From positions 1 through 33,787 of the forward strand of contig JAGVAO010000188.1 in the NCBI GenBank assembly GCA_020060235.1: DNA of 33,787 nt, written 5' to 3'. This document shows positions 1-26,492 of this stretch, in pieces. A model generated the notes under the pieces. That model ran no database searches, was not told where the DNA came from, and saw only the letters and a program-made list of their open reading frames with translations. How positions within the stretch are numbered: position 1 is the stretch's first letter; every line of letters starts with the position of its first letter. A program made the translations under genes and the position numbers. Source of the stretch: Anaerolineales bacterium (lineage in GTDB: Bacteria > Chloroflexota > Anaerolineae > Anaerolineales > Villigracilaceae).

Positions 1-3000
1 CCCGATGATGCGCGGATGATGCCCGGATGCGGAAACAATCTGACGGGTGGCTTCCAGCCCATCCATCTCCGGCATCTGGACGTCCATCAAGATGACATCA
101 TATTTCTGGCGGGCTGCCATTTGCACGGCTTCGTAACCGTTCAGGGCGGTTTCTGCCGCGTAACCCATTTGACCAAGCAGGCGCAAGGCCAGTTTTTGGT
201 TTACCAGGTTGTCTTCTGCCAGCAAAATGCGCAGGGGATGGCGCGTGGCCAATTCGGGGTCGAGGCGGGGGCGTTGGGGGACGGCGCTTTGCTCGCCAGG
301 ACTTTCAGTTTTGGAAAAGAGCGCGACCAGCGTGTCGAATAGCTGCGATTGTTTGAGCGGCTTGGCGAGGTAGGCTGAAAATAAGCCTGCGGCTGTTCCA
401 GAATCGGGCCGCCCGATGGAGCTGAATAGCACCAGCGGCAGTTTGGCTTGCAGTTTGCGGATGCTTCGGGCGAGTTCAACGCCGTCCATCTCGGGCATGT
501 GCATATCCAGAATGGCGAGGTCGAAGGTTTCGCCGTTTTTGAGCCACTCAAGCGCCTGTTGGGGTTGGGCGGTTTCGCGCACGCGCATTCCCCAGTGGGC
601 GGTTTGCAGGTTGAGAATTTGGCGGTTTGTGGCGTTGTCATCCACGACCAGCAGGCGTTTGTTTTGCAATTCGGGTTGCACCTCGTACATTTGATGGCGG
701 GCCGGCATCGGGTCGTTCGATGCGTCTGCCTGGATGCTGAAGGTGAAGGTGGAACCTTTTCCGATGCCTTCGCTGGTGGCGGCCATTGTTCCGCCCATCA
801 GTTCGCTCAGGCGCTTGCTGATAGCCAGTCCCAGCCCGGTGCCGCCATATTTGCGGGTGGTGGATGAATCGGCCTGGCTGAACGCCTGGAAGAGTTGGGC
901 GATGTTCTTTTCTGACAGCCCGATGCCGGTATCGCGCACGGAAAATATGAGATGGTAGCGGGGGGATTTGCGCATGGGCTGTGCCTTGACGGTGAGCACC
1001 ACTTCGCCCTTGTCGGTAAATTTGAGGGCGTTGCTGAACAGGTTGAGCAAAATCTGGCGCAGTCGGATTTCGTCGCTTTCGATGACCAGCGGGACATCTT
1101 TGTCGCAGTGGTATGCCAGTTCGATGTGTTTTTTTGTGGCGGAGGCGGCAACCAGGTCGAGGGCCGATTCGATACAATCGCGCAGGTTGAAGGGGCGCGT
1201 CTCGATGTCCATGCGGTTGGCTTCGATTTTTGAGAAGTCGAGAATGTCGTTGATGATGGTGAGCAGGTTTTCGGCTGAGTTGCGGATGGTTTCAGCGTAG
1301 TCAAGTTGTTCCGGGTCCAGGTTGGTATTGAGGAGCAAGCCGCTCATGCCAATCACGGCGTTCATCGGGGTGCGGATTTCGTGACTCATGGTGGCGAGGA
1401 AGGCGCTTTTTGCCTGGTTGGCTTGTTCGGCGGCTTCGCGCGCCTCGCGGGCTTCGGCAAACAGGCGGGCGTTCTCGATGGCAATGACCGCCTGGCGAGC
1501 CAACCCGTTCAGGAATTCCAACTCGCGTTCGCCAAAATCCAGCCCCTCCCCTGCGCGCCAGACCGCCATCAGGCCCTTGAGTTCGTCATTGGCAAGCAGG
1601 GGCACGGCCAAAAGATGTTCATTTTTGGCAATTTCGGTGCCGGAAATACGCACAGCGCGCTTGTCGGCGGCAACATCGTTGATGATTTCCCCGACTTTGC
1701 TCTGGGCAATGTAGCCGAGAATGCCCTTGCCCGGCACAATACTGTCGTTGAGAATGGCGTCGGCTTCTTCTCCCAGGGCTGCAATGGCGCGGAAAATGCC
1801 TCCTTCTGGCAAGAACAGGGCGGTCAGGTCGGCGTTGAGCAGGTTTTTGGCGTGAGTGGCGATTCCTTCAAGAACAGTGGCAGTTTCGAGCGAGGAGGAA
1901 ATATCACGGCTGATGTCGAGCAGGGCGGCGGTTTCGCGGGCGCGGCGTCCGGTTTCGGCGTGCAGTTGGGCGCTCTGGATGGCGGCCCCGGCATTGGCGG
2001 CGATGGTGGTCAGCAGGCGGAGCGAATCTTCTTTAAACCGGCCTTCTTCACGCGTGGATTGCACGCTCAAGACGCCGATGGTTTCTCCCGCGGCAAAAAT
2101 AGGCACGCCCAGGTAAGACAGGGCGGGTTTGCCCACAGGCTCAATGCCCAGCCGGATGCGGGTTGGCACAATATCTTTGTTGATGAGCAAGGGTTGACCG
2201 CTCTCAAGGATGCGGCTGGTCAGGCCGGCTCCTACCGAGATAGGCTGAATCGATTCATCACCATAGGAGTAGGGGAAGTTAATCATCCGGGCTGCCCGGT
2301 CGTACAGGGCCAGGTAGGCGATGTCGGCGTCGAAAGTCTCCTGGGTTTGGCTACCGATGAGTTGGATGAGGCTTTCGAGTTCCGATTCTGCCACCAAAGC
2401 CTGGCTGACCTTGCTGATGGTGGTCAACTCGCTGTTACGTTCTTCGGTTTCCTGGAGCAGGCGCTGGGTTTCATTGAAGAGACGCGCGTTTTCGAGGGCG
2501 ACGCTCATTGAATTGGCGAGGGTTTGCAGCAGGCGCACGTCGCTTTCGCTAAAGGCGTTTTCTTCCATGCTGGTCAGGTTAATCATCCCGCGAATCTGGT
2601 CACCGACAGTCAGCGGAACAAAAACGAGTGCTTTCTCGACCGAGGTGCCGGGCAGGGTGTAAGCGCCATACTTTTTTCGCTCTTCCTGCAGGTTTTCGTT
2701 AATGACAACCGTTTGGCGGGTACGGATGACATGAGCAGAAAAACCAACTTCTCCTACTTTCAGGGGAGGAATTTCGAGGCGCTTGCCGCCTTCGGTTGTG
2801 TAGGGGAAATGCAGCAGGTCAGTTTTGGGGTCGTAGATTCGGATGTTGACATCTCTATTTTGGAAAATCTCACCGATTTTGTCGCCGACTGCGTCGTAAA
2901 TGCCCTGAAGGCTGATTTCGGCGGCGAGGGCGGCCTGCACACTGTTGATGACTGCCAGTTCCGCATTGCGTTCTTCCGTGATTTTTATAAGCCGCTGGGT

Positions 3001-4608
3001 TTCATCGAACAGGCGCGCATTTTCCAACGCGACTGCCGCCTGGTCTGCCAGCAGGCTGAGAACGCGCAATTCTTCGGCCCTGAACTTGCGGCTTTTCTTA
3101 AACGAAAGGTTCATGACCCCAACAGTGCGCTGTCCAATTTTGAGGGGCATGCCAATGATGGCGCCGTTGATTAACTTTTGGTTGGTGTAGAGCGGGTGAT
3201 TGCTCATATCTTCGATGATGATGGGTTCTCCATGTTGCACAACCGAGTAGGTTAGGCCGTCGCGGCGCGGTTTGCTGAAAGGCTGGTCTTGTTTCCCGTC
3301 TTTGTAGTAGGCTGCGCCAAACTCAAGCAGGTCTTCTTCGCTCTTGTAAAGAAAAATGTGCAGGGTGTTGGCGTCCTGGAACAGGCTGAAGGTATCGTGC
3401 AGGATGGTGTTGAGCAATTCCTGGAAATTAAGGTTGGATGCCAGGCTAAGGCTGACTTTGCGAACAGTTTCCAGTTCGGCGGCGCGTTGTTCGGTTTCAC
3501 GCAGCAGGCGCTGGGTTTCGTCGAACAGGCGCGCATTTTCAATCGCTCCGCTCATTGAGTGTGCCAGGGTTGCCAGCAGGCGCGCGTCCCGTTCGGTATA
3601 TGCGTTTTGCTGGTAGGCTTGCACACTCAAAACACCCAGGGCAGTATCACCGCTAACCAGCGGGACGCCCAGGTACGATTCGTTATATTCCCGCTCTTCC
3701 CCCGGAATGATGACCGGTAACACGCCCAGCGTTTCCTGTTCGCTCATCGAATTGAGCCGCAAGGGCTGGCGTGTTCGGATGATATGTGAGGTCAGGCCGG
3801 GTCCGTATGGGTCGGGCGGTTCGTTGTGCCGGAATCCTTTTTCGACATAATACGGAAAGTGAATTTGCCCGCCGGGTTCGTCAAACAGCGCAACATAGGC
3901 TGTATCGGCCTGGAAAATTTCGCGTATTTTTTTGCCAACCAGGTCGCAAACTGCTTGCAGGTCCAGTTTGGAGGCCAGGCTTTCCTGAATATTGTTGATG
4001 ATGGCCAGTTCCCTGGCGCGTTGCTGTTCGGTTTGGAGCAGGCGCTGGGTTTCATCAAGCAGGCGGGAATTTTCCAGCGCGACGCCCATGCTGGCGACCA
4101 GGGTTTGGAGCAGGCGCTGGTCTGATTCGCTGAAGGCGTGTTCGCGGTCTAAATTTTGAAGCGAAACAACCCCTTTCACCTGCCCGGCGACCAGCATGGG
4201 GACAAACAAGACCGATTTGGGCGCTTCGCCAGAAAGTGACACCGGATTGCCATATTTTTTAGCCGCTGCGAGGTGGTCTTGATTAATCATCAGCGGCTGG
4301 CGGCTTTCGAAAACGTGCTTTCGGAAACCGAAAATCGGAATTGGCTCGATGTGATAACGAATGCGGCGCTCGATGACGTACGGGTGGTTCAGCAGTTGGG
4401 TTTGCGGGTCGTAAACGCCAATCATGACCACCTGCGCGTCGAAGATGTCGCGCAATTTGTCGCCCACCAGGTCGTAGATGGCTTGCAAATCCAGATTAAG
4501 GGCAAGCGCCGACTGGACCGAATTGATAATGTCCAGTTGGTATTCGCTTTGCGCCAGTCTTTGCTCAAGCGTTGATGGAGCGTTTTCAGCGGTCGGTTTC
4601 TTTGCCAT
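1..4608 (-). CDS. Multi-GAF hybrid histidine kinase (C-terminus cut by window edge)
   Basis: This open frame has no stop from the ATG at 4608 to base 1, giving 1536 codons, and it continues beyond the window. Six GAF-like domains can be read at about residues 20-170, 195-350, 372-528, 545-708, 722-880 and 895-1045. They are joined by near-identical linkers of the type [12 protein letters not shown] HisKA domain follows, with the phospho-acceptor His at 1076 in [10 protein letters not shown], then an HATPase with an N box near 1190 and [10 protein letters not shown] near 1255. Receiver 1 has its acceptor Asp at 1368 ([10 protein letters not shown]), and receiver 2 has Asp 1509 and is truncated. 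No membrane segment is seen, so it is probably a cytoplasmic phosphorelay sensor. The ATG lies 8 bases after the stop of the upstream kinase gene, with GAGG as ribosome site, so the two are very likely cotranscribed. The ligands of the GAF domains are unknown. Confidence 0.93.
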
Positions 4609-4616
4609 AATCTGCC

Positions 4617-7600
4617 TCAATCCACTTTTTGTACGGTAACGCGCTGTAAAGCCGCGATGAGTTCTTTGACCTGAATTGGCTTGCTGACGTAATCGTCCAT
4701 GCCGGCTTCGAGACAAATCTCGCGGTCGCCCTGCATGGCGTTGGCGGTCATTGCCACAATGTATGGCTGTTGGGCGGGCGGCAGTATTCGACGAATGGCG
4801 CGGGTGGCTTCCAATCCATCCATTTCGGGCATTTGCACGTCCATCAGAATCAGGTCGTAGCGTTGGCGCTCCAGTGATTGCAAGGCTTCCAGCCCATTTG
4901 CGGCGATATCTGCCCGGTAGCCCATGCGCTCCAGAATGCGGATGGCCAGTTTTTGATTGACCGCGTTATCTTCCGCCAGCAAGATTTTGAGCGGGTGGCG
5001 TGTCGCTATTTGGTCATCAAAAACCGTTCCCGGCACTGGCACGGGGTTTGCACTGCTCTCCTGTAGCGCAAGGGCGCTGACAATCGCATTGTACAGGCTC
5101 GACTGCTTGACCGGTTTGGTCAGGAAGGCGGCAAAAACGCCATTTTCGGCAGAGTCACGCCAGCCCAGGGATGTGAGCATGATGAGCGGCAGGTTCTTGT
5201 TTTGTTTGTGGATTGACTGCGCCAGCGTGACGCCGTCCATTTCGGGCATTTGCATGTCCAGAATGGCGAGATCAAAGGCTTGGCCCTGTTCCAGTGCATC
5301 GAGAGCCTGAAACGGGGAGGCGAAGAGCGAAGCATCCATACCCCAGGAGCGCGCCTGCAAACTTAAGATGCGGCGGTTGGTTTCATTGTCATCCACGACC
5401 ATCAGGCGTTTGCCGTTTAATTGGGGCACAGCCGCCAGCCGGTCTGTGGGCGGGAGTTCAGCCACGCGCGCTACGATGGTAAAGTGAAAGGTGGAGCCAA
5501 GCCCTTCCTGGCTTTCGACCCACATCTTTCCGCCCATCATTTCGCTCAAGCGGTTGCTGATTGCCAGCCCCAGGCCTGTGCCGCCATATTTGCGCGTGGT
5601 GGATGCGTCAATTTGCGAGAAAGATTGAAACAAGCGGTCCATGCGGTCTTTGGGAATGCCAATGCCCGTATCGCGCATGGAAAAATGCAGGGTCACACTG
5701 TCCGGTGCATCGTCCGGGCTTTTTTCAGGCATCGTCCCTACACTCAGCGCGATTTCACCCTGGTGGGTGAACTTGACAGCGTTGCCAAGCAGGTTGACGA
5801 CAATCTGTCGCAGGCGGGCTTCGTCGCTGGCAATAACTTCGGGCACGTCCGGCTCGATGAGACAGCCCAACTCCAGGCCTTTTTCGGCGGCTTTCAGGGC
5901 GAGCAAATCGAGGGCAGATTCGAGACAGGCGCGCAGGTGGAAGGGCTGCTTTTCCAGTTCCATTTTCCCGGCTTCGATTTTGGAGAAGTCGAGTACGTCA
6001 TTGATGATGGTCAGCAGGGAATCGCTGCTCTGGCGGATGGTTTCGGCATAGTCGCGCTGCTCGCCATTCAGGGGGGTATCCATAAGCAATCCGGTCATGC
6101 CCATGATGGCATTCATGGGCGTGCGGATTTCGTGGCTCATGTTTGCCAGGAACTCGCTCTTGGCGGTTGAAGCCGCTTCTGCCGCGGCGCGGGCTTCGAC
6201 GGCTTCGGAGGTGCGTTCTTGTACGCGCTGTTCGAGCGTTTCGTACAGGCGCGCGCCATCTACGGCGCTGGCAATTTGACTGCCGATTGTGAAGAGCAGG
6301 TCGTGATAACTTAGCGCAATCGGGCGGTCGCTATCGGCATTGTCCACTACCAGCGTGCCGATGCTTTTGCCTTTGCTGACCAGCGGGACAACGAGAAGTG
6401 ATTTTGTTTTTGAAAATTCAAAATAATCCCGGGCGCGTTCGCTCAAGTCAGGGTCGCTGATGTTGACCTGCCGTGGCTTGCCAGAGCGGATGATGCCGGG
6501 AATCAGGGAATTGGCGGCGGGGTTAAGGGGTAGGTCCATGGTCTGTAAAACGGAAACCATTTTCGGGGTGAAATTGATGGCGTGGGCAAAGGTCAGGAGT
6601 TGCCGGTTTTCATCCACAAGCATAATCAGCGCCCGCTCAAAATGCAGGTGATTGATGACTGCCCGCAGGCTGCGGTCAAGCAATTCGGAAAGGTTGAGTG
6701 TGTCGCGCAGGGTTGTGCCGATTTCGTAGAGCGTCGTCGCTTCGGAGATTCTTTGCTGGAGCGCCATGTTCGAAATTTGCAGGTTGGCGTTGGATTGCTG
6801 GAGCGCATCGTATTGCTCTTCGGAGCGGTCGCGTTGTTCGAGCAGGAGTGCTTCCTGGCGCTGGTTTTCCTGGCCGAGTTTGTTGATGCGGAATAGCAGA
6901 ATGCCCATCAGCGCCGGGGAGATGATGGCAACAATCAGGATGAGCATTTCCCAGCCGGGGAGTTGTAAGAGCACATAGGCGAGCGCCAGAACTGAGAGCA
7001 CAGCCCCAACCAGGATTTCGAGCGCGGTCTGTCGTTGCGTGACTGCCTGCCAGGTGAATTCCCATTCGTTGTATGGAAAATCATCCATGACGGATTGCAG
7101 GACTTTGGCCTGGGCAATGGGCAGCCCGGAGTGAAAATGCGGCAAAACGGCAAACAGGCTTTGATAGCCTTCGTATCCCAGGCGCAAGTAATGGCGGTGC
7201 AGGTTTTCGGGCAGGCTGTTCAGCTGTTTGTGCGGGTGCCATTGCAAAACTGCCGAGTTTAGTGAGACGCGGGTGACACGAATATCTGCGTCGCTAAACC
7301 GCGACACAATTTGCGGAATGACCCCATAGACCTGCCGTAATGGAAAGGGGCGAATCAGGTTTAAGAGCGATAAAAGCGGGGAGGATGGGTTGATATGCAG
7401 ACCGCGATTAAAGAAAAAGCGCGGGTCGCCGCAAATGTCGCGGGCGAATTCGGCGGTGTACAGGTTGAATTCGTGTGAATAATGCCGGTGCGGGTCGAGC
7501 AGGGATTCTTTGCTGACCCGGTAACTGGTTTGCTCCAGCGCATTGTTCAATTTTTGCGCCAAGTCTTCGAGTGCCTTTTCTTGCGCCTGCGAAATGAGTT

Positions 7601-9521
7601 GCGTGCGCTGTTCTTCGCTGGTTCCGGGCTGGGTCTCTTGTTCCACCTTGCGCTGGATGTAGTCGTACATTTGCGAGATGGATGCCAGGATGGTCGCGGC
7701 GTTGGTACTACGAATGGGTTTTCCATCCGTACCAACACCAAAGGGCTGGGTTTGCATGTGCGGCGGCAGGGGAGGCAGTAGTTCTTCCGGGTAGATGGCT
7801 GGTTGCCAGTCCACCCGGTCCATTAGCAGCAGGGCATCTTTGGCGGGAACAGTTCGCCCTATCCAATTGCTTTGCCCGCCTGGCGTTCCCCAGGTAAATT
7901 CCCACTCGCAACACTCGTGACCATCCAGCGTGCAGCGTATTTCGCGCGTTACCGCGGGGGGTAAGCCTTTGCTTAATTGTGGAATGACGCTGTACGCCCC
8001 CTGATACACCCGGCAGGTCATGTGGATGGAGCGGCGATGCCATTCGGGGGGCAATTTTTCCAGTTGGGTTTGTGGATACCATTGCAGGATGGCGCTGTTG
8101 CTTGTTACCTGCGCCACGCGAATATCTTCATCTACAACTTTGGCGGTCAGGCGCGGCACCAGATTGAAAATTTGTGAAATAGACAGGTGCCGAATAATGG
8201 AAACCATGGCTGGCGGCACGCTTTTTGCGCCGCGACGGATGAAAAATTGCGGGTCGCCGCTGATTTCGCGCGCAATTTCATTGACCAGCAGGTTGAACTC
8301 ATAGGAGTAGAAGCGGTCGGTATCAAAGAGCATCTCGCGCGTCACATGGAAACGTGGGTCGGGAATGGCGTCATTGACTCGCGTCACCAATGTTTCAATG
8401 GCTTCATCCTGCGCCTGCCGGATTTGGGATGCGCGCTGATGGGTGGTGAGCGCTTCGTGGAAGTGCTCGCTTACTTTCCTGCCAATCGATTCATTTAGTT
8501 GTTTAATGGCTGAGAAAAGCAAGGTTCCGCGAATATGGTTGATGGGATGTCCGTTATCATCCTGCCCGAAGGGTTTGCCCTGTATGAAGCGCGGGCTTGG
8601 CCCCAACTCGTCTTCACTACGTTCCTGGGTTGTCGAAAGACGCTCTGGCGGGGGGGCGGAAATTGCTGATATTTGGGGGGATGCTTTTTTGCGGCGCGAA
8701 AACAGGGCGGCTAATCCCTGCGGGGGTGGGACTTCCCAACTGAGTTTCCACTCACAGTAGGGGTCGCCCCTTAACTGGCATTTGATTTCCTCCACCCGCG
8801 CAAATGGTCGCCCCGAATGAAAATATGGAATACTCGAGTACACCCCCTGGTATGCCCGGCAGGTCATGCGCAGGTAGCGGCGATGCACCTGCGGGGGGAC
8901 TTTTGCCAGTTGGTGTTCGCTGTGCCATTCGAGATGCACAAAATTTTCGCCAACTTTTGTCACACGAATATCGGCATCGGTTTGTTTGGATGAAAAGCGG
9001 GGTAGGAGACTGTAAGTGTAGGAAAGAGAAAATGGGCGCACCATCCCCAGCATACTGGCTGGCACGCTTTTTACCCCGCGCAGGTAGTAGAACAGCGAGT
9101 CGCTGCCTGCAATTTCGGCGGCATATTCATTGGCAAACAGGCTGAATTCGTACGAGTAATAATTCCCCTTGCTGGTCAGCGAATCGGTGCTAACCGAATA
9201 GCTCGGGTCAGGCATGGCGTGGTTCAGTCGCCGCACCAGTTCATCCACCGCCTCGCGCACAGCCTGAGTAACGCGCGTTGTGCGCTCTTTAGGGGGCAAC
9301 GACATTCCCAGTTCCGCGAGTGTGCGCTCTTCGACGGATGCTTTTAATTGTTCGACCACTCCGATAATGGATGAAGAGCGTGATTGCTTTATCAAATTTC
9401 CCGCTGAATCCAACCCAAAAGGCGGATACGCCATCCGCTCTGGTAGGGGTGGCAGGTCAGTTTCGGCCTCCCGGTCAATCCTAATCTCGCGCAGCGATTG
9501 TTGAAGAATTTCATCGGCCAT
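4617..9521 (-). CDS. Hybrid histidine kinase with three tandem V4R/HNOB-like sensor modules
   Basis: The protein has 1634 residues from the ATG at 9521, which has AGGA seven bases upstream. A TTG nine codons earlier is possible but less likely. Three copies of a ~280-residue module (about 22-265, 310-548, 585-830) each begin with PFG-x-D/G-x-x-G-x-x-I. Each contains D-x-DIRV and ends in E/R-x-x-x-C-x5-8-C-EW-x-x-x-W, although the third copy lacks the cysteines. The modules resemble V4R/heme-NO-binding-like sensor domains, but this assignment is tentative. Two membrane segments (about 835-875), a coiled coil and one GAF domain (about 934-1097) follow. The HisKA His is 1130 ([10 protein letters not shown]), [10 protein letters not shown] is near 1313, and two receivers have acceptor Asp 1422 and 1561. 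No HPt domain is present. The protein is probably an inner-membrane phosphorelay sensor, and the next gene on the same strand is a second hybrid kinase. Confidence 0.93.
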
Positions 9522-9586
9522 GGGTTGTTCCTGCCAGCAGAACGGCAATCAGGTGATTTTTTGCTTTTCCGATAAATTGTCTCTAA

Positions 9587-16738: not shown

Positions 16739-19528
16739 TTAGCGGCGCTCGAGATGTAAATCGGCCATGGCGTAGGGCGTATAAGCCAGCCCAAGGAAAC
16801 TCCCCTCGTTGAGCAGGTCCCAGCGCATGCCGAGAATGGCCTGGCCGACGTCTTGCCCGCGGCCCAGGCGCTCGAAGAATTTTTCGGCGGCCAGGTAGCC
16901 GTGTTCGACCGTAACCGGGATTTCGGTACCGATGACGCCGCCAGCCAGCAGGTCGCGGAAGGCGCTGACAAAGTTCAGGGTCAGGTCAGGCAGCAGGTCG
17001 GTTGTGTAACAGCCGTTGATAAAGACCAGCGGCCGGGTTTCCTGCCACTGCTCCAGGTCGATAAAATCACGCTCGCCCCAGGCGCCGGGCAGGTCGGGGG
17101 TGATGGTGTAACGGGCATCCTTCCCGCGCGGGCCGATGCTCAGGTAGGTTAGTTTATCGTCCTTGCCGCCATGACACAGGATATAAACCAGTTGCGGGGC
17201 GCGCAGGCTGTCGCGCACCTGGTCGCGTTCGCTGGCCGGGATGTTGGGAATGTATTCCGCGTTGAGCGAATCGTGAATCGACTGGAAGTGCTGTTCGCGG
17301 CGGCTTTGGCGGGGGACGTCGGTGGTGGCGGCTACCGCCACTTTGACGCGGTCACCCGCGCGGACGCTGCGGGCCGGTTCCACATCCCAGCCTTTGCCGA
17401 GCAGGGCCGAGATGGGCTGCTCGAGGGTATATTTGTAGCCCCAAAAACCGAACGGGCAGACGGTGTTTGGCCCGTGTTCGGCCTCGTGCGGACAGGCCAG
17501 GTTTTCCTGGTTGCGATAGGCCGGCTTGCGCCTGAGAAAATTTGCATCCCACTGTTCTTCGACCACTGGACAGAGTTTGAGCGGCAGGTCGGAGCGGTCA
17601 GGCTCGAGCAGGTGGTCGTACACCAGCGCCCAGGGAATGATGTGGGTCGCGGGCACCGACCCGGCTCGCGCCAATTGGATGATATCCCCGGCGCGCAAGG
17701 TGGTTCGGAATTGCCTGCGCCATGCCAGGGGCGCCAGGCCCTCGGCGGGTGTGAGTCCTTGCAGCAGGATGCTGTACAGGTTCGCGCCGAGTTTTGCCAG
17801 CGCGAACAGGTCTTCCCTGAATTTGTCGAGCAGGAAGGTGTCCTGGTCGAAATCGAGCGGCTGGCCCGACGGGTCAGACAGGATGCGGCGGGCTTCTTCG
17901 AGCATGTTTTGGATGGCCTGGGCGTCGTAAGCTTTCCAGGCCGGGGGCAGGCTGTCTCCCTGGCCGGTTTCAGCATCCCCTTTGAGCAGGATACGGTGCG
18001 AGCCTGAACGGTCATCGTTCATCAGGATTCCGACCCGGATGCGCTCATCTTGCCCGCTGCCGGTTCGGTGACGGGTGGAAATATCGCCCAACTGGCGGTA
18101 GTCGGAGGTCAGGACGTAATCGACCTTCCCGGAGTTTTCTTCGACTGATGCGGTCTGGTTGGAGATGCCCATATTGAGTACCGCGGATTGCAGAACCTGC
18201 GCGCCGTAATACAGGCTCAACCGTCCACGCGCGCGTTCACCGGTGAGCGGCGCATTCAGGCGCAGTTTGAGCGGGCCGGGCTGGCTGGCGAGCGCATTAT
18301 TAATGTAAGGGATGCTGCGCCCGGATGGATTGACTGGCACGCGGATTTGTCCGCTGACCAGGTTGGGCTGGAATTCCTGGCTGACGAAGACGACTTCCAG
18401 GTCGAACCAGCCCTGTTCACGGTCTTCCCGCCGAAGGTAGGGGGTATCTGCATCTTCGGGGAAGAAGGCCTGCTCCCCGAGCAGCGAGACCTCCTTTTGC
18501 CAGGGCAGGCCGACATCGACGAGCAAATCATAGGGGCTGCCGGGCTGAAGCGGCTGGCTGCGCGCCAAAATCTGCCCGTTTTCGGCAGACGCAAAGTTGG
18601 CGTTCAAGACGCGTTTCGAGGGCGGGCTAACTGGCCTTGATGACCGGGCAGATTCTTCAGGGGCCAGTTCTTCCAGTTCGAGGTCAGCCCATTCGTCCAT
18701 GTCGCCTGGAACAGGCGGTTCTGCGTTTGTCCATCCGGGTTCTTCGTCATCCGAGAGCCATTCGGGCGATTCTTCTGGCGCTGTTGTTTCCATCTTTGGC
18801 TTTTTTGAGCTTGACTCTTCCAACCAGTTGTAGGAGTCGTCTTCGAGGCTATCGCTGTATTCGGTTTCTGAATCTGCCGCATCGAAATAACTCTCAGCGC
18901 GCCTGGCCGCTTTGGCAAAGAGAAAATCGCCTTCCAGTATCTCGTCCGAATCATTTTCGAAATCATCGGGTGTGATGGCGCCGTTCATAATCCTTGGCGA
19001 TAGGGCGGCGGCGTAAACGATTCGCAGCCCGGAAGGTTGTTCCGCTTGCATGGCTTCGCTGATGGGTTTTGAAACCATGCCGATTACAGCATCCTGTTCC
19101 AGGTCTATCAGCGGCGCGCCGCTGAGAATGTGCGCGCTTTCCTGGGCGGATTCAAGGCGGATGATGTCCTGGGTGTCGATTGAGGGCACTTCGCCAGCCG
19201 TTTGAATTACAATGGGCTGGCCATCGGCGAAAATGGGAAAGCCATACTCGCTTGCCATCCATGCCAGGCTGCCAAGGGATAATATCTCCGCGCTTGCAGG
19301 GGGTTGATGGACGCGCAGGATTGCAAAGTCGTGGCCGGGGTCTTGGGTTCGCAGGCGGATATCCGCTTCTGCAACCGAACCATCTGCCAGGAATTTTATT
19401 TTGACGTTTTTGCCTTGCGGCAGGAGGTGGGCACAGGTAAAGACCAAGTGTTCACTTGCCAAAAAGCCGGCCCCCAGCACTTTTTCCGACTTATCAAGAA
19501 TTAAAACCGTGCCAAGAAGAATATTCAT
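16739..19528 (-). CDS. Trypsin-like protease fused to a CHAT caspase-like protease
   Basis: The protein has 929 residues from the ATG at 19528, which is preceded by GAGA; a GTG seven codons upstream is an alternative. The N-terminal ~190 residues fit an S1-type serine protease. His34 lies in FTCAHLL, Asp67 in HDFAIL and Ser136 in LSGAPL, a complete triad. Residues about 200-310 form a very acidic Ser/Glu/Pro linker. A beta-rich region (about 330-490) may be an Ig- or C2-like domain. The C-terminal CHAT domain has LCHGG with His786 and FINGC with Cys840, the catalytic dyad of caspase-like proteases. No signal peptide or membrane helix is seen. The order suggests one protease may activate or be activated by the other. 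CHAT proteins act in several bacterial stress and defence pathways. No defence partner is adjacent here. Confidence 0.88.
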   Translation of the reverse strand: MNILLGTVLILDKSEKVLGAGFLASEHLVFTCAHLLPQGKNVKIKFLADGSVAEADIRLRTQDPGHDFAILRVHQPPASAEILSLGSLAWMASEYGFPIFADGQPIVIQTAGEVPSIDTQDIIRLESAQESAHILSGAPLIDLEQDAVIGMVSKPISEAMQAEQPSGLRIVYAAALSPRIMNGAITPDDFENDSDEILEGDFLFAKAARRAESYFDAADSETEYSDSLEDDSYNWLEESSSKKPKMETTAPEESPEWLSDDEEPGWTNAEPPVPGDMDEWADLELEELAPEESARSSRPVSPPSKRVLNANFASAENGQILARSQPLQPGSPYDLLVDVGLPWQKEVSLLGEQAFFPEDADTPYLRREDREQGWFDLEVVFVSQEFQPNLVSGQIRVPVNPSGRSIPYINNALASQPGPLKLRLNAPLTGERARGRLSLYYGAQVLQSAVLNMGISNQTASVEENSGKVDYVLTSDYRQLGDISTRHRTGSGQDERIRVGILMNDDRSGSHRILLKGDAETGQGDSLPPAWKAYDAQAIQNMLEEARRILSDPSGQPLDFDQDTFLLDKFREDLFALAKLGANLYSILLQGLTPAEGLAPLAWRRQFRTTLRAGDIIQLARAGSVPATHIIPWALVYDHLLEPDRSDLPLKLCPVVEEQWDANFLRRKPAYRNQENLACPHEAEHGPNTVCPFGFWGYKYTLEQPISALLGKGWDVEPARSVRAGDRVKVAVAATTDVPRQSRREQHFQSIHDSLNAEYIPNIPASERDQVRDSLRAPQLVYILCHGGKDDKLTYLSIGPRGKDARYTITPDLPGAWGERDFIDLEQWQETRPLVFINGCYTTDLLPDLTLNFVSAFRDLLAGGVIGTEIPVTVEHGYLAAEKFFERLGRGQDVGQAILGMRWDLLNEGSFLGLAYTPYAMADLHLERR

Positions 19529-19579
19529 GTCGGTCTCTTTCTGGAGCACATTTGCCCGAATTTGTTACCTTGTCCCTGG

Positions 19580-25607: not shown

Positions 25608-26492
25608 CTATGGCCCATAGTTTGTTACCACCAGTTCGCTAATTTTTCCGCGCCTTTCGGGCTTTGAATTGATTGCGCGCGAGGCTTTAACCTCAACACA
25701 ATAAAAATCCTTATATAGATTCAAAACAGTGTCTACCCAAGAATTACTCAGTATTACCATACAGCCACGTTTATCCAGTTCCCGAAAAATACCAGCCAGT
25801 TCTTTTTGCTCCTGCTCTCCGAAAGGTTTTTCTGTATAACTGGTAAAGCTGGATGTTTTTGAAAATGGAGCATAGGGTGGGTCAAAGTAGATAAAATCTC
25901 CCGCTTGCGCCCAGTTTAAAATTTCTCGAAAATCTACTGCATCCAAGCTGACATCTTGCAAGGCCAGACTGGCATTTTTCAATTCTTCGACATCAAAAAT
26001 AGTCGGGTCTTTGTAACTTCCCATTGGGACGTTGAATTGGCCGGAACGATTGACACGGTAGAGACCATTGAAACAAGTCTTGTTAAGGTAAATAAACCGC
26101 GCTGCGCGATCAATAGATGAAAGGTGTTGGACTTTCAAGGCGCGAGTATGATAGTAATATTCTTTGTCGTGTTTTTCCCGATGAGTGGATAGTTTCTCGA
26201 TTAGTTCATTGACGTTATCGCGCACAACAGCGTAACAATTGATTAGTTCAGTATTGCTGTCTGTTAACCTGGCATCTGTAAAAAGAAGGCTTCTTTTCTC
26301 TCGCAAGGTAAACAAGTGCCAGTAAACCGCTGCACTGCCGGTAAATGGCTCGCCGTAACGCGAAAAATTTTTCGGGAGCAGCGGGGTTAATTGCTCCAAT
26401 AATTGTGATTTTCCGCCAGCCCATTTCAGGAAGGGTTTTGGGAAAATGCGCTGTACCTGAATTTCAAACAATAAAGGTTGGCTAAGGGTCAT
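25608..26492 (-). CDS. Dam-family DNA adenine N6-methyltransferase (D12 class)
   Basis: The protein has 294 residues, a normal length for Dam/M.DpnM-type enzymes that methylate adenine using S-adenosylmethionine. Motif I is FLKWAGGKSQL (about 19-29). The catalytic motif IV is YFDPPYAPF (about 199-207). The family motifs GEPFTGSAAVYWHL and FNVPMGSYKDP are also present. GATC is the usual target of this class, which is inference here. No matching endonuclease was recognised in the neighbourhood. The promoter carries the XRE operator dyad. The gene is AT-richer than most neighbours, suggesting horizontal acquisition. Confidence 0.95.
   Translation of the reverse strand: MTLSQPLLFEIQVQRIFPKPFLKWAGGKSQLLEQLTPLLPKNFSRYGEPFTGSAAVYWHLFTLREKRSLLFTDARLTDSNTELINCYAVVRDNVNELIEKLSTHREKHDKEYYYHTRALKVQHLSSIDRAARFIYLNKTCFNGLYRVNRSGQFNVPMGSYKDPTIFDVEELKNASLALQDVSLDAVDFREILNWAQAGDFIYFDPPYAPFSKTSSFTSYTEKPFGEQEQKELAGIFRELDKRGCMVILSNSWVDTVLNLYKDFYCVEVKASRAINSKPERRGKISELVVTNYGP

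Follow-up and report, generated by a model that had tools for sequence, protein, structure and literature searches.

The gene at positions 16739-19528 of the window (the whole stretch of 33,787 nucleotides of an uncultured Anaerolineales bacterium that was analysed) encodes a single protein in which a trypsin-like domain is fused to a CHAT protease. Judging by sequence and predicted structure, the CHAT half is a genuine protease and presumably active, because its dyad and cysteines are conserved, it is well modelled and it matches Csx29, separase and SAVED-CHAT. The trypsin-like half is likely a binder rather than an ordinary protease because the glycine of its oxyanion hole has been lost, and is more probably a sensor or regulator than a cutting enzyme. 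The trypsin-CHAT fusion is a variant within already known kinds of CHAT/caspase-like protease systems. The more surprising part sits outside the coordinates of the gene and is a membrane protein that recurs beside the same CHAT module in relatives. Along the protein chain the features are:

16739..19528, minus strand: whole gene, 929 residues, ATG start at 19528 and stop codon at 16739-16741
18959..19528, minus strand: trypsin-like (Trypsin_2) domain, residues 1-190, from PF13365, alignments and HtrA-type structure matches
19427..19429, minus strand: His34 of the triad, invariant in the alignment
19328..19330, minus strand: Asp67 of the triad, invariant in the alignment
19127..19129, minus strand: Ile134, at the site of the oxyanion-hole glycine (Gly193 in chymotrypsin numbering), from the homologue alignment
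19121..19123, minus strand: Ser136 of the triad, invariant in the alignment
18629..18961, minus strand: acidic linker, residues 190-300, predicted disordered (32% D/E; pLDDT <50)
18119..18628, minus strand: beta-rich domain, residues 301-470, start of the module with an RVLNANF motif; predicted mostly beta over ~305-470
17369..18118, minus strand: middle of the module, residues 471-720, aligned to the caspase/separase-like region of TPR-CHAT
16742..17368, minus strand: CHAT protease domain, residues 721-929, from profile, structure and conservation
17171..17173, minus strand: His786 of the CHAT dyad, invariant in 13 and at least 90% conserved in 42 sequences
17009..17011, minus strand: Cys840 of the CHAT dyad, invariant in 42 sequences

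The reading frame of 929 codons is unbroken, and translation might instead begin at an in-frame GTG at 19549. A pseudogene or frameshift is ruled out as the frame is intact in both species that carry the fusion, and chance co-occurrence of motifs is ruled out by profile matches and conservation. The gene lies between DegV and DUF418 genes, with FakA-DegV upstream and DUF418 and an ABC transporter downstream; a conserved operon with FakA/DegV or DUF418 was rejected, these genes not being found near homologues. No MoxR ATPase or vWA genes were recognized among the window ORFs profiled, nor any gated MBL-type nuclease partner among the profiled neighbors. Elsewhere in the window are a 1643-residue GAF-histidine kinase-double receiver hybrid (4617-9548), on which PADLOC matches to SduA/PDC were discarded as they sit on its response-regulator (receiver) domain, a second very long frame overlapping that gene (1-4716) and a D12-class DNA adenine methyltransferase (25608-26492; PF02086, E 3e-59). 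The genome encodes four further CHAT-domain proteins (L001-L004), none with the module described here, and gives two Trypsin_2 matches in total.

The module (residues ~305-929) is made up of the beta domain, caspase-like middle, Cys cluster and CHAT domain, and its ~600 residues are the constant part of a wide family. A whole-protein search of genome contigs confirmed nothing; the module alignment then gave 80 listed loci of 145 relatives, with hosts in Chloroflexota, Actinomycetota, Proteobacteria, Acidobacteriota, Planctomycetota and archaea (Methanoregula, Bathyarchaeum). Its distribution is patchy in the class genome sample, and a plasmid search returned module-level relatives only. In relatives the module opens with a motif like R-[YVI]-x-N-T-G-F, and in its middle C653, C679 and C691, which cluster with H685, are invariant in 42 sequences. 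Queried by itself, the window protein gives no Pfam CHAT (PF12770) match even at E 0.1, but 10 of the 13 relatives aligned over the module do, which makes the missing single-sequence match a matter of profile sensitivity. The module profile matches the solved CHAT proteases 8tl0 (SAVED-CHAT, E 1e-4) and 8d9h (Craspase TPR-CHAT, E 0.02), with its His and Cys in register with theirs, and the His-Cys spacing along the alignment equals that of the H585/C627 dyad of TPR-CHAT (PMC9729208). An AlphaFold model of the window protein built with 42 sequences gives the module pLDDT values of mostly 80-97, and compares well with TPR-CHAT/Csx29 (Z 16.2 over 311 residues, rmsd 4.1), separase (Z 15.2) and SAVED-CHAT (Z 14.0). 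The initial annotation, which had described a single protein with a trypsin triad (His34/Asp67/Ser136), a CHAT dyad (His786/Cys840), a very acidic linker and a beta-rich domain, is therefore upheld in its domain content, the five residues reading H, D, S, H and C. The structure prediction it had called for recovered the CHAT fold but left most of trypsin residues 83-151 below pLDDT 50.

PF13365 (Trypsin_2) matches residues 19-151 with an E-value of 2.4e-9 (38.5 bits; gathering cut-off 27.6), and HtrA-type structural matches cover residues 1-88 of the model. The trypsin part is poorly modeled because viral contigs searched for trypsin-domain relatives yielded one weak relative only. Its closest relatives are the N-terminal trypsins of trypsin-NTPase proteins (L018, L019, L008, L010, and L017; NTPase by reading), and the PADLOC profile RT-Protease_XI (DRT) matches the domain at E 8e-9. 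Two residues before the catalytic serine (GxSGxP) all 40 aligned homologues, 14 non-HtrA and 26 HtrA-type, carry glycine; this is Ile134 in the window protein, a substitution that the initial annotation had passed over, and Leu in the only other trypsin-CHAT protein found (L052, the same protein as L006). In HtrA-like proteins a non-glycine residue at 193 strongly disfavors the active oxyanion conformation, and MamO, with Glu at this site, is a pseudoprotease that promotes cleavage by MamE, for which its presence is needed but its own triad is not (PMC4794232). Trypsin domains in the effector position of vWA proteins are nearly all called inactive (PMC7159879), which fits a non-protease reading of the domain described here. 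The loss of glycine may be a single event, as just two trypsin-CHAT members are known. Both retain nearly all the other invariant core residues, G19, G21, H34, D67, S136, G137, and G150 among them, and the kept triad and core, along with a retained Cys32, hint at some remaining function of the trypsin half. This half evolves faster than the module, at 49% identity between the two species compared with 75%.

The linker between the halves has a pI of 4.05 and contains repeated [DEN]W[LA] motifs (window 18629-18961), which are also found in L052 and could be binding or cleavage motifs. Between the two fusion proteins the linker varies greatly, in sequence as well as in length, and no common cleavage site is obvious.

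What precedes the module differs from protein to protein, and includes kinase, cyclase-like, HEAT, LRR and EF-Tu domains as well as Frankia-peptide-like and hydrophobic segments. Six N-termini resemble nitrile-hydratase (NHLP, RiPP-type) leaders (L061, L072, L088, L090, L092, and L105), L088 by a profile match below cut-off and the other five by likeness. A trypsin domain occurs in exactly one of 66 scanned N-termini, that of L052 from the same genus, and the trypsin-CHAT architecture is consequently known from two species of one genus. The search for homologues of the same architecture suggested in the initial annotation thus found one, and the oxyanion glycine is replaced in both members. 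EAD1/EAD7-like matches, all sub-threshold, occur on the N-termini of module relatives, and the Pfam scan gave none on the window protein. Together with the kinship of the trypsin domain to trypsin-NTPase proteins, these matches support the proposed ties to conflict and death-type systems.

Two proteins of the same genus, L053 and L054, are ~63% identical to the window protein over the module and share an N-terminal domain with L056-L059. Direct profile comparison of this domain with CHAT is weak (probability 8%); structure comparison revealed a CHAT fold, the model of the domain (pLDDT 74; L053:3143-3952 in L053) matching SAVED-CHAT with Z 13.3 over 188 residues. The catalytic His and Cys are both absent in all six sequences: no His follows ‘HFxG’ and D, Q or H stands at the Cys site, with an intact CHAT module behind. 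The closest sister occupants of the slot are therefore, by predicted fold and residues, dead proteases, and several domains seen in the slot resemble adaptors or dead enzymes rather than released effectors. Among other members, two from Streptomyces (L071:8156-11362 and L076:8168-11362) carry a full three-domain EF-Tu before the module, which could be a decoy or guard against attacks on EF-Tu. A Dactylosporangium protein (L126:9074-11809) has a caspase-like N-terminus (‘VHFAGH’ by eye, no Pfam match) and is possibly another two-protease fusion. The Streptomyces plasmid pADI95-16a (L174:325-7767) has two consecutive CHAT-domain genes with a hypothetical gene in between.

Most relatives have a second gene. 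At 62 of the 80 listed loci the module gene has a small-protein gene (86-156 residues in the aligned set) no more than 1 kb away, in 58 cases within 140 bp; this neighbor is upstream (34) or downstream (16) on the same strand, or downstream on the opposite strand (12). Three hydrophobic segments rich in glycine are seen in most members, and the protein is predicted to be a three-helix membrane protein (L088:3422-3814, L090:8922-9326 and 60 more loci among L052-L131). A Pfam scan of the partner gave no convincing family, the best supported being DUF2304 at E 0.001 (below cut-off where shown), and listed no EACC1 match; a PADLOC scan of two partner proteins gave no match, and no description of such a pair was found in the freely accessible papers searched. 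The partner is recurrent and apparently undescribed. It is present in eight of the 298 genomes in the class sample. Five of these eight belong to the ten that have a full-length module, a number obtained by scoring the best few module candidates per genome, so that other genomes can less safely be said to lack the module. In those five the two genes are adjacent by coordinates, and the other half of the ten genomes have no membrane partner. On a Rhodococcus aetherivorans plasmid the gene for this small protein comes 18 bp after a module gene of the LRR form. The conserved C-terminal tail of the longer form of the partner is missing from a short actinobacterial form, which makes a universal CHAT cut in this tail unlikely.

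The three-helix membrane protein is a likely candidate for the partner or substrate of CHAT, and its presence beside most relatives argues that the module usually works on, or together with, another component. At the window locus no small membrane-protein gene adjoins the gene, and searches of the window, its genome and the sister genomes G001 and G002 gave no partner, while five positive-control genomes matched. The initial annotation was right that the gene has no adjacent partner here, but this does not extend to the family.

What, then, could the fusion do? Domain content, conservation, the lost glycine, the module family, the partner of relatives and the unsuccessful search for it here are the observations at hand, and we consider it an even chance that they reflect a signal-activated CHAT protease, in which the trypsin-like domain provides the input, by binding or regulation, and CHAT is the catalytic output on a substrate in trans. 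The constant C-terminal module would be the catalytic part, with the N-terminal slot swapped between family members and occupied in this genus by a trypsin-like domain resembling those on bacterial NTPase (NLR-like) immune proteins. This domain most likely binds a peptide or protein, or works solely in a special conformation; the binding signal would pass through the flexible acidic linker, relieve inhibition and switch on CHAT, which would then cut its substrate in trans. In most relatives CHAT would act on or with the adjoining three-helix membrane protein and so cause a membrane lesion or arrest. We infer the sensor role of the trypsin domain, this direction of control, the cutting of the partner and a role in defense from the observations above. 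A bolder version is conceivable, though on balance doubtful: that cell death or arrest via the membrane is brought about by an undescribed and widespread two-gene system, which pairs a CHAT protease carrying an interchangeable sensor with the glycine-rich three-helix membrane protein. The window protein would then be an orphaned branch with a trypsin-like pseudoprotease as sensor, trapping or recognizing a peptide or invader protein, so that an inactive protease would govern an active one within a single polypeptide.

The strongest rival, which we think unlikely, makes the trypsin domain a real and very selective effector that is freed when activated CHAT cuts the acidic linker. Retention of the triad and core residues in both members at 49% identity agrees with this, as does the joining of a variable domain to a constant CHAT through a disordered linker, and EACC1 caspase systems have been proposed to deploy their fused effectors by the same logic (PMC7159879). 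Active enzymes with a substituted Gly193 exist: activity is reported for mouse KLK13 (G193D), although none was seen for KLK10 (PMC2967472), and TSV-PA, with Phe at 193, is counted among the active ones (PMC3123349). The lost oxyanion glycine nevertheless speaks against it, and so does the resemblance of several other slot occupants to adaptors or dead enzymes.

The initial annotation had suggested a possible self-contained cascade, in which both proteases would be active in one chain, one activating the other by a linker cut, with no partner needed. Both catalytic sets are present, the acidic linker is exposed, and precedents are published in multi-peptidase conflict systems (PMC7159879) and the SAVED-CHAT protease cascade (PMC11229360). 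This reading is nonetheless improbable: the oxyanion glycine is replaced in both fusion members, the slot is filled by a dead CHAT in sister proteins, 62 of 80 listed relatives have a separate partner gene, and the two linkers differ greatly. Least probable of all is a regulatory protease for housekeeping in stress or development rather than conflict, as the ordinary genes in the neighborhood (FakA-DegV, DUF418, and ABC transporter) and the differing gene neighbors of relatives might suggest, given the patchy distribution in the class sample, the EAD-like domains of relatives, the plasmid copies and the fast-changing N-termini.

If the reading of a CHAT protease switched on by its trypsin-like domain is correct, bacterial caspase-like proteases are rewired by swapping of their front domains, and protease folds could themselves be put to new use as sensors. 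The recurrent membrane partner is in turn a candidate for the missing target in CHAT systems of this kind.

Among known systems, the CHAT/caspase-like fold of Craspase TPR-CHAT (Csx29) and separase is alike over ~310 module residues, including the middle region, and the dyad of TPR-CHAT matches that of the window module. However, the window protein has no TPR, a different N-terminus and an identity of just ~11%, and no Cas7-11 was recognized among the profiled ORFs near the gene. SAVED-CHAT of type III CRISPR/CBASS, a protease working in a cascade (PMC11229360), is the best sequence match among solved CHATs, but its input is a SAVED domain that binds cA3 whereas here it would be the trypsin-like domain. 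The same kind of trypsin domain occurs in trypsin-NTPase (NLR/STAND-like) proteins and in AVAST, Hachiman and DRT protease fusions, from which the window protein differs in lacking an NTPase, a recognized nuclease partner and the oxyanion glycine. MamO likewise combines a trypsin/HtrA fold with a non-glycine residue at 193 (PMC4794232), but has Thr in place of Ser, binds metal, carries a TauE membrane domain and is not fused to another protease.

The two-gene organization of relatives resembles that of EACC1-caspase, a membrane-associated conflict system in which a small glycine-rich membrane protein accompanies a caspase with tens of alternative domains, EF-Tu included (PMC7159879). Both pair a small glycine-rich membrane protein with a caspase-superfamily protein bearing interchangeable domains. 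EACC1 has a single TM helix, and its caspase is N-terminal with a C-terminal variable region, whereas the partner described here is predicted to have three helices and CHAT is C-terminal with the variable region in front. Assignment of the window locus to EACC1 was consequently rejected, given the reversed polarity, the different membrane protein and its absence at this locus. Nucleases activated by paired trypsin or caspase proteases (PMC12799240) illustrate another working mode of such proteases.
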